Below are positions 32,356 to 38,401 of a DNA stretch of 62,529 nucleotides, in pieces (position 1 is the stretch's first letter; each line of letters starts with the position of its first letter). The DNA lies in NCBI GenBank assembly GCA_937899725.1, contig CALCCA010000094.1, forward strand, positions 1 to 62,529. Reading direction: 5' to 3'. The position numbers were made by a program, and so were the translations under genes. Source of the stretch: an uncultured Halomicronema sp. (GTDB taxonomy: Bacteria; Cyanobacteriota; Cyanobacteriia; Phormidesmidales; Phormidesmidaceae). The notes below the pieces were generated by a model that saw nothing but the letters and a program-made list of their open reading frames with translations, made no database searches and had not been told where the DNA came from.

Positions 32356-34266
32356 TTATTTGTAGCTGCGCTGGGTGGGTGGCGCATTGTCAAACTGCAG
32401 CTCTTCTCGATGTAAAGTGGCAGGACGATCGCTGCCCCGATGCTCCCAAGCGGCGACGTAAGCGAAGTTGGCATCATCACGCTGGGCTTCGCCATCGGGG
32501 GTTTGGTGCTCTTCGCGAAAGTGACCACCACAGGATTCTTCGCGGTGCAGGGCATCTTGAGCCATCAGTTCGGCCAGTTCTAAAAAGTCGGCAACGCGAC
32601 CGGCAAACTCAAGATTTTTATTGAGCGTATTGGCGGCGCCCGGCAGCTTGAGGTTGTGCCAAAATTCGTGCCGCAGTTCACGGATGCGGGCGATCGCGGA
32701 TTTCAAACCCGCGCGATCGCGGCTCATGCCCACATCGTTCCAAACCAGGCGACCTAACTCGCGATGAAAGGTCATTACGGTTTTGTTGCCCTGAATGTTG
32801 AGCAACTGCGTTAGCCGCGTTTGGGCCGCGTGCTCAGCTTGTTGAAAAGTGTCATCAGCCGGGGTCACCGCAGCCAGGGAAGTGCTCGCCAGGTAGGTGC
32901 CCAGCGTGGGCGGAATCACGAAATAGCCATCGGCCAACCCCTGCATCAGGGCACTCGCGCCCAGCCGATTCGCTCCGTGATCCGAAAAGTTGGCCTCGCC
33001 CAACACAAACAAGCCCGGAATCGTACTCATCAGATGATAGTCAACCCAGAGTCCGCCCATTGTGTAGTGTACGGCGGGATAAATTCGCATCGGCACCTGA
33101 TAGGGATTTTCGCCGGTGATGCGCTGGTACATGTCAAACAGGTTGCCGTATTTAGCGGCGATCGCTGCCTGCCCTTGCGTTTGAATCGCGTCTTGAAAGT
33201 CAAGGTAAACGGCTAGCCCCGTTTCGCCCACGCCGCGTCCCTCATCGGTTATGGTTTTGGCATTGCGGGAAGCGACATCACGGGGCACGAGATTGCCAAA
33301 GGCCGGATAGCGACGTTCGAGATAGTAGTCGCGATCGCCTTCCGGAATGGCGTGGGGCGATCGCGAATCGCCCGGCATTTTGGGCACCCAGACCCGACCG
33401 TCATTGCGGAGCCCTTCGCTCATTAGTGTGAGCTTCGACTGATAGTCGCCTGAGATGGGAATGCAGGTCGGGTGAATTTGGGTGTAGCAAGGATTGGCAA
33501 AATACGCGCCCCGCTTGTGGCAGCGCCACGCCGCCGACACGTTGGAATTTTGGGCGTTGGTAGAGAGGTAATAGACATTGCTATACCCGCCAGTACACAG
33601 CAGGACGGCATCGCCCGCGTGGCGTTCGAGCTGACCCGTGACTAAATTCCGCGTGATGATGCCCCGCGCGTGTCCGTCAACGACCACCAGATCTAGCATT
33701 TCGCGGCGGGCGAAGATCTGCACCTGCTGCGCTTGCACCTGGCGCAGCAGGGCGCTGTAGGCCCCCAGCAACAGCTGCTGCCCCGTTTGCCCTCGGGCAT
33801 AAAACGTCCGTGAGACCAAAGCGCCACCAAACGAGCGGTTGGCTAGTAGCCCGCCATATTCCCGCGCAAAGGGCACGCCTTGGGCAACACACTGGTCAAT
33901 AATTTGGTTGCTGATCGCAGCTAAGCGGTGAACGTTCGCTTCGCGTGAGCGGTAGTCGCCCCCCTTGAGCGTGTCGTAAAACAAGCGCCAAACGCTGTCG
34001 CCATCGTTGGGGTAGTTTTTAGTGGCGTTGATGCCGCCCTGGGCCGCGATGCTGTGGGCACGGCGCGGCGAATCTTGAATGCAAAAGCTTTTTACCTGAT
34101 ATCCGAGCTCGGCGAGGGTCGCTGCTGCCGCGGCCCCGGCTAGCCCCGTCCCCACAATCAGTACGGTGTGTTTGCGTTTGTTGTTGGGGCTCACCAGCGG
34201 GCAAGTTTCTTGGAAGCGAGTCCATTTGTCACCGAGCGCCCCCGAGGGGATACGAGCATCAAGCAT
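32356..34266 (-). CDS. sdhA: Succinate dehydrogenase/fumarate reductase flavoprotein subunit
   Basis: 636 residues, typical of the larger SdhA/FrdA subtype. It oxidises succinate to fumarate with covalently bound FAD and passes electrons through SdhB to the plastoquinone pool. FAD-binding [21 protein letters not shown] (about 35-55), the [11 protein letters not shown] block with the FAD-linking His (about 71), LVPRDVASR and the active-site [11 protein letters not shown] are visible. No sdhB or sdhC is adjacent; scattered sdh genes are normal in cyanobacteria. It diverges from the SSADH gene, which makes succinate, placing producer and consumer side by side. Confidence 0.93.
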
Positions 34267-34761
34267 GGGCAGGGGGAGGGATTAGTGGAGACAACACGAA
34301 AAATGAGTCCTGCTCTGAGCATACAAATCCGACTGACGCTGTGGCCGCCGGTTTGGGCCAGCCAGTTCTGCCGCTAACTCCCAATGCTCAGAAAATTGGG
34401 GGCCACGTACCCCAGATTAAAGGATGTCAAGGGGTGATGCATCAGGTCTGACAGCGCTTTGATGGTTTCGCGAAGTGACCCATGGGAGGAATTAGACAGG
34501 GCGGCGGTTGAGCGGCAGCGGTGCAATGAATCCCCATCTGGTAAGGATAGAACATTCGATTGCGCCCACCGATGACGGGTGCCACGTAGCAGGCCAGCCT
34601 GGGTCAAACCCAGCAAAATCCAGATCGGTCCATAGAATCATCAGTCAGTGAACAATCAATACAATTTCAACGGTTGCCCCAGCGTCCCTTGCGACAGTAG
34701 AGATCGGCCCAACGCTGCGACCCGAACTCCACGACAGTGTTGCCTGTAAGAGGAGGCTACG
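34267..34761. other. Divergent promoter region between sdhA and the SSADH gene
   Basis: About 495 bases. No gene, repeat or RNA was recognised. A ribosome-binding site (AGAGGAGG) lies just before the SSADH start at 34762. The region could coordinate expression of the two succinate-related transcripts. Confidence 0.45.
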
Positions 34762-37844: not shown

Positions 37845-38401
37845 AACCGGTAGATCGGCGCTTTTGCCGACGCTGGACTTTGGCCACGACCGCCGCGATC
37901 GCCCTCTGCAATCCACTTGGGGTGATCGGACTGTTGATCGGGCCTATCGTGCTGGCGATCGCCCAGGGGCTGGTGCTCCGGCGCTATTACGCGCCGTTTG
38001 TCTGGTGGGGCGTCGCGACGATAGGCGGTGGCTATGGGGCGATCGCGCTATTTATTGTGTGGGCTCTCGCTTGGTCATCTGTACCGCTGCCGTTGATGGT
38101 GTTTGTGTGTGGGGCGATCGTGGGGTGTCCGCAGGCGTGGGTGCTGCGGCGCGGCAGTCGCTTGTGGGGCTGGTGGCCACTGGTGAATGCGGTTATTCTC
38201 ACGGTCAGCATTGCCTGGTTTGTGCCCGATATGGTCGATGCGGCCATTTACGGTACTCGGCGCATCCTCTGGCACTGGGTCGCGTTGGCTGCCTTGACGG
38301 GCCTCATCGGCGGCTGTCTCAAGGGGCTGGCGCTGGTGTGGTTTCTGAAAAAACGGCCAGCCCCCACGCAGGATGCTGACGCACCAGCAGTCTGCAACTA
38401 G
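37832..38401 (+). CDS. Hypothetical membrane protein downstream of the 2-OG decarboxylase gene
   Basis: 189 residues from ATG 37832, which overlaps the previous gene by 13 bases. About five or six hydrophobic segments cover residues 15-175 (for example LATTAAIALCNPLGVIGLLI, LVNAVILTVSIAWFV). It has a basic N-terminus and a short polar tail. No family recognised. The overlap suggests co-translation with the TCA-bypass operon, but a role there is only a guess. Confidence 0.6.
   Translation: MLHLKPVDRRFCRRWTLATTAAIALCNPLGVIGLLIGPIVLAIAQGLVLRRYYAPFVWWGVATIGGGYGAIALFIVWALAWSSVPLPLMVFVCGAIVGCPQAWVLRRGSRLWGWWPLVNAVILTVSIAWFVPDMVDAAIYGTRRILWHWVALAALTGLIGGCLKGLALVWFLKKRPAPTQDADAPAVCN

Follow-up and report, generated by a model that had tools for sequence, protein, structure and literature searches.

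Does the head-to-head placement of a succinate dehydrogenase gene beside the genes of a succinate-producing bypass mean that the two are controlled together? The question is raised by positions 32,356-38,401 of a 62,529-nt stretch of DNA from an uncultured Halomicronema sp. (assembly GCA_937899725.1, contig CALCCA010000094.1), hereafter called the window; its genome is labelled G000, its sister species G006 and its family f1. In this locus, sdhA on the minus strand diverges from a gene for succinic semialdehyde dehydrogenase (SSADH) and a gene for a ThDP enzyme, both on the plus strand, across a gap of 495 bases (Table 1). A sequence-only reading of the window had claimed these genes, their order and the gap; all were borne out, and the four open reading frames were confirmed with their coordinates unchanged.

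The ThDP gene starts with GTG at 36201 or with ATG at 36207, so that 47 or 53 bases separate it from the SSADH gene, which is read in the same direction. Past the far end of sdhA come two genes that, named by eye, are presumably psbN and psbH, and past them tatA and pth were recognized by profile models.

Table 1. Features of the sdhA-bypass locus, in window coordinates
Feature	Position	Strand	Evidence
sdhA, B-type succinate dehydrogenase flavoprotein, 636 aa	32356..34266	-	NF005749 1135 bits, TIGR01811 942 bits
Intergenic region, 495 bases, between divergent sdhA and SSADH	34267..34761		444/495 aligned bases same in G006
Inverted repeat CCCAAT-N9-ATTGGG	34380..34400		G000 and G006 only, among upstream regions compared
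Block 5' of SSADH, putative promoter or activator site	34644..34704	+	Alignment with 5/5 more distant relatives
SSADH (ssaD-like), 463 aa	34762..36153	+	NF006915 648 bits (cut-off 730), PF00171 438 bits
ThDP enzyme, cyanobacterial 2-oxoglutarate decarboxylase (ogdA) type	36201..37844	+	NF006187 865 bits; three TPP-enzyme Pfam domains
Membrane protein, 189 aa	37832..38401	+	No Pfam/NCBIfam match; hydropathy

The bypass genes

The SSADH and ThDP genes make up the standard bypass of cyanobacteria, ordinary and old. That the pair is known in cyanobacteria had been stated in the sequence-only reading, and it agrees with our survey: at 66 of 80 loci from a separate contig set, the best 80 of a longer match list, SSADH lies upstream at no more than 1.9 kb from the ThDP gene, and the pair is present in 63 of 94 loci from the class and the order. 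A 2-oxoglutarate decarboxylase/SSADH bypass was reportedly described for Synechococcus sp. PCC 7002 by Zhang and Bryant in 2011. In PMC5160925, the ogdA-ssaD operon of that strain is A2770-A2771, and disruption of the route leads to a smaller succinate pool. The window resembles that bypass in having the same two enzyme families in what is probably one operon. It differs in that sdhA is head to head with the pair and that a membrane-protein gene overlaps the end of the decarboxylase gene, whereas sdhA (A2569) and sdhB (A1094) of Synechococcus sp. PCC 7002 are, by locus number, unlinked to the pair (PMC5160925).

The best model of the ThDP protein, NF006187 (PRK08322; cut-off 509 bits), carries the name 'acetolactate synthase'. 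Were the protein an AlsS-like acetolactate synthase instead of a 2-oxoglutarate decarboxylase, this name would fit, as would its score of 511.6 bits against the AlsS model NF006378 (cut-off 510, exceeded by 1.6 bits) and the fact that catabolic acetolactate synthases are the nearest proteins of solved structure; the site that reads GYDLVEFSPK in the ThDP protein is GYDPVEYDPK in the closest of them, an ancestral enzyme, and GARFDDRVTG in the IlvB-like protein of the window genome. We nevertheless regard an acetolactate synthase as highly improbable. The protein misses the cut-offs of both TIGR02418 (AlsS; 472 against 551 bits) and TIGR00118 (biosynthetic; 432 against 538), and shares 33% identity with the IlvB-like protein encoded in the window genome. 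Its identity to 11 cyanobacterial orthologues, a set to which A2770 does not belong, is 71-89%, and 10 of the 11 have SSADH upstream, which would provide a use for succinic semialdehyde; the range is also 71-89% for 10 aligned relatives from the order. The operon of Synechococcus sp. PCC 7002 and the drop of its succinate pool on disruption argue in the same direction. The assignment rests on percent identity and curated models; the ThDP tree proposed in the sequence-only reading leaves 9 of its 12 inner branches open, with the three paralogues on very long branches, and its resolution is too low for a decision. Since SSADH lies upstream of the ThDP orthologues and the 7002 operon has the same two families, 2-oxoglutarate decarboxylation is the likely activity. 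A second decarboxylase copy, with no SSADH neighbour, is seen in G003 (L039, C1:7444918-7446534), and in G142 (C615:1678-3309) the decarboxylase frame is interrupted by two TAG stops.

The SSADH protein has its best match to NF006915, a model for NADP-dependent succinic semialdehyde dehydrogenase, and scores under the cut-off. The ThDP enzyme would convert 2-oxoglutarate to succinic semialdehyde and SSADH would convert the latter to succinate, which SdhA would oxidize; we judge this pathway logic, put forward in the sequence-only reading, to be right. The products would act in consecutive steps, for which no neighbourhood of their genes should be needed.

The membrane-protein gene begins with ATG at 37832 and shares its first 13 bases with the end of the ThDP gene, at 37844. 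A simple hydropathy count gives five hydrophobic segments, and the protein matches no Pfam or NCBIfam model. A homologue directly follows the ThDP gene in G003, G004, G009 and G058 (in the last, three copies stand in a row after the decarboxylase; L041, 4600-6774) and lies 1.6 kb off in G002. Among the 80 loci of the separate contig set, a homologue is found at one, 7 kb away. The overlap had been noticed correctly, and a membrane gene directly behind the ThDP gene is confined to close relatives. In this branch the membrane protein and the pair may be translated together, whereas the bypass in general, judged by the distribution, does without this gene.

The type of succinate dehydrogenase and its subunits

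The SdhA of the window is of the B-type, as it exceeds the cut-offs of TIGR01811 (541 bits) and NF005749 (866 bits). It is unlike SdhA of the Synechocystis type, whose model NF004613 it matches with 219 bits (cut-off 824), and no NF004613 match at E 1e-180 is present in the window genome. By the names of the models the enzyme is a B-type succinate dehydrogenase (SDH) as in Bacillus and others, and all three subunit families are found in the window genome above cut-offs, with an SdhC on contig C92 (TIGR02046, 141 bits, cut-off 96) and an SdhB on contig C164 (passing NF005746). Unlike in a B-type SDH operon, the three genes are on three contigs. sdhC-sdhA-sdhB are kept together in G051, G053 and G054, and sdhC-sdhA in others. 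In the branch of the window, sdhA, encoding the flavoprotein, would no longer be within such an operon, and the iron-sulfur and cytochrome b558-family subunits are encoded elsewhere.

When 16 genomes of the order were searched, SdhC was found in 15 and SdhB in 14. Of 30 B-type sdhA loci with short flanking stretches, 17 show SdhC within them; in f12 and f2, none was found there. The b558-family anchor gene is found in the window's order, f11 and f16, and five histidine columns are invariant in all 10 aligned SdhC proteins from these groups. In B-type SDH generally, conserved histidines of the single cytochrome b anchor are heme ligands. Among 145 genomes of the class, B-type SdhA is present in 33 (32 over cut-off) and the NF004613 type in 97 (96 over cut-off), both types in none and neither in 15, all at E 1e-180; in Synechococcus elongatus, used as a control, the B-type SdhA was the one subunit seen. 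That the two types never occur together looks like the replacement of one SDH by another. In PMC11014987 (2024), SdhC and SdhD are called absent from cyanobacteria on the basis of E. coli queries, and HdrB appears to replace them; the resulting Synechocystis-type SDH with an HdrB-like subunit would be an alternative, in other cyanobacteria, that carries out the same reaction. The B-type anchor found in this order, f11 and f16 qualifies the absence of SdhC as stated there.

The sdhA linkage and the gap within the order

The order is represented by 63 genomes, with the ThDP gene in 54 (E 1e-150), sdhA in 52 (E 1e-100) and both in 47. sdhA adjoins the pair in two of the 47, namely the sister species G000 and G006. 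In the other 45, the two genes are on different contigs (36 genomes, some with short contigs, for which adjacency is not strictly excluded in each) or at least 172 kb apart on one contig (9 genomes). The G006 contig carries pth, tatA, the psb genes, sdhA and SSADH in the order seen in the window and ends within the ThDP gene; the two species are 97% identical in sdhA, 95% in SSADH and 98% in the ThDP fragment. In G002, G003 and G004, sdhA is flanked by a gene read as dxr and by another gene, both of which are on contigs other than that of sdhA in G000 and G006. In G002 and G003, pth, which is near sdhA in the window, shares a contig with the pair at a distance of ∼470 and ∼490 kb, respectively. 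The narrow distribution, together with the dxr-like and other flanking genes being away from sdhA in G000 and G006, suggests that the junction of sdhA with the pair is probably young; the linkage is narrow and likely recent. The sequence-only reading had named, as a finding that would speak against it, a linkage seen in no relatives. The order comes close to this, the one linked relative being a sister species, and falls short of it in that SDH genes lie near the pair in three other families.

G005, of the same genus and listed as 100% complete in ∼100 contigs, has neither SdhA type and no SdhB, SdhC or ThDP decarboxylase that passes the thresholds used. Its sole PF02910 match is a 561-aa frame, probably an L-aspartate oxidase, and the genome seems to be without both the bypass and SDH. 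Joint absence of sdhA and the ThDP gene was considered as evidence of coupling and set aside: G005 is the one convincing case, and in G001, which still has SdhB and SdhC and is in 910 contigs, an assembly gap is equally likely.

Could the divergent arrangement be a co-regulated unit, in which the 495-base region controls both sdhA and the pair and thereby raises the making and the use of succinate in step? The head-to-head layout would suit such a unit, and so would the 89.7% identity of the gap between G000 and G006, where an inverted repeat in mid-gap is kept in both species. Identity at fourfold sites is 75% in SSADH, 81% in the ThDP fragment and 87% in sdhA. As the gap exceeds the fourfold sites (those of sdhA only slightly), portions of it beyond the SSADH block described below may be under selection, but identities of 96% and 86% also occur in two further intergenic stretches. 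The gap had also been called a shared promoter region; the gap is there, and the promoter scan found no sigma-70-type site in 34200-34830. Two overlapping terminator-like sites were found in the same interval (minus strand, 34397-34414) against 0.6 expected. No NtcA box (GTA-N8-TAC) is present in the gap of either species, and an Rfam scan of 30000-40000 gave no match.

Comparison of 7 SSADH and 9 sdhA upstream regions points to a block 5' of SSADH as a putative promoter or activator site. The block holds GTGAACAATCAATAC (34648-34662) and TTGCGACAGTAGAGAT (34689-34704), and its consensus across five more distant relatives is GTGAACAATCWATAC, then TTGYCA-SAGTAG with variations. In local alignments, 55-61 bases are 68-71% identical in G002, G003, G004 and G009, and G058 gives a longer match of 61% identity; all five keep the block with sdhA located elsewhere. 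At the sdhA end of the gap, alignment is limited to 28-36 bases at the start codon and is seen in 4 of 7 relatives. Of 127 distinct SSADH upstream regions, 8 carry the first element of the block with no or one mismatch and another 5 carry it with three, and these 13 all come from the window's order; among 635 shuffled regions, none matched at two mismatches or fewer and three did at three. The element is not order-wide, in that four loci of genus g7 (L046, L047, L050 and L054) match no better than chance.

Sequence comparison thus establishes the narrow linkage and the SSADH block in congeners without it, as it does the genes, their families and their orthology. Since the linkage is confined to 2 of 47 genomes and the block is kept in congeners that have sdhA elsewhere, sdhA most likely moved beside an existing operon. 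We argue with good confidence that the locus is an ordinary bypass operon with its own promoter, and that sdhA moved in beside it in the ancestor of G000 and G006. The plus-strand genes would probably form one transcription unit, the promoter of which would lie within ∼120 bases of SSADH. A rearrangement in that ancestor would have placed sdhA, as the presumed mover, head to head with the bypass promoter, and the new neighbourhood would have little or no regulatory role. A co-regulated unit is quite unlikely by comparison with what the order offers: the adjacency is not seen in 45 of the 47 genomes with both genes, so the arrangement is not a conserved one, and the SSADH block exists where sdhA is not linked. 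For the same two reasons, the coordinated control that had been read from the divergence is not supported in the form proposed; shared control of sdhA and the bypass is, from the sequences, possible.

SDH genes near the bypass in other families

Of 145 class genomes surveyed, 119 have the ThDP gene. In the 114 with both SdhA and the ThDP gene, many of them drafts with the two on different contigs, coordinates place them within 5 kb of each other in three (G000, G119 and G154) and on one contig at ∼11-31 kb in four more (G149, G069, G066 and G083). The surroundings of the ThDP gene were read, as far as 9 kb to either side, at 94 loci from 30 families, consisting of the window, 13 relatives from its order and 80 of the 107 ThDP-bearing class genomes outside its family; in the remaining 27, where sdhA was the one gene sought by coordinates, none has it within 100 kb on the ThDP contig. 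The queries were SdhA of both types, B-type SdhB and B-type SdhC, without HdrB. SdhB of the other type gives a weak match to the B-type query (27% identity in G119). Unlinked sdhB or hdrB genes of the non-B type may therefore be missed.

Besides the window's family, SDH genes were found near the pair in three families. In f11 (G105, G138 and G149), sdhB is head to head with SSADH-ThDP across ∼150-355 bases, depending on the start taken. In f30 (G119), sdhA, sdhB and an HdrB-like gene converge on the pair, with a glutamate-dehydrogenase-like gene on the far side, and in f23 (G154) sdhA is 2.7 kb from the pair. The 1028 clusters of open reading frames around the ThDP gene, the pair aside, include none that occurs in more than three families and nine that occur in three, one of which is the glutamate-dehydrogenase-like gene (f1, f11 and f30). 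In G119, the genes for the glutamate-dehydrogenase-like protein, SdhA, SdhB, the HdrB-like protein and decarboxylase-SSADH stand together (L230, C212, 6252-14821), a possible glutamate-to-fumarate cluster; the glutamate-dehydrogenase-like and HdrB-like proteins are below the cut-offs of their own best models.

These cases would favour co-regulation, as would a simple Poisson estimate made over 80 genomes with the window left out and the hdrB-like gene counted as SDH: at distances chosen after the cases had been seen, two families lie within 0.5 kb against 0.057 expected (P ∼0.0016) and three within 2.7 kb against 0.31 expected (P 0.004). Against it, none of the 80 loci of the separate contig set has SdhA, SdhB or SdhC in its flanks (to 10 kb, often shorter). 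Pooling with these negative loci changes P to 0.005 at 0.5 kb and to ∼0.02 at 2.7 kb, and at 9 kb the unpooled P is 0.09. The excess in other families is a weak hint and may be real. It is conceivable that selection repeatedly brings SDH genes beside the pair in separate families, with a region like the gap switching the making and burning of succinate together, and we consider this rather doubtful. Among the matches listed in our literature search, no title or abstract opening mentions a linkage of sdhA to the bypass or the presence in cyanobacteria of a B-type SDH.

The gene set of the window is known biology, and gene order alone gives no support for shared control in this genome. The putative block ahead of the bypass operon, conserved in part of the order, would be a concrete target for a regulator search, and the occurrence of SDH genes near the bypass in several unrelated families makes the idea of a coupling between them testable.
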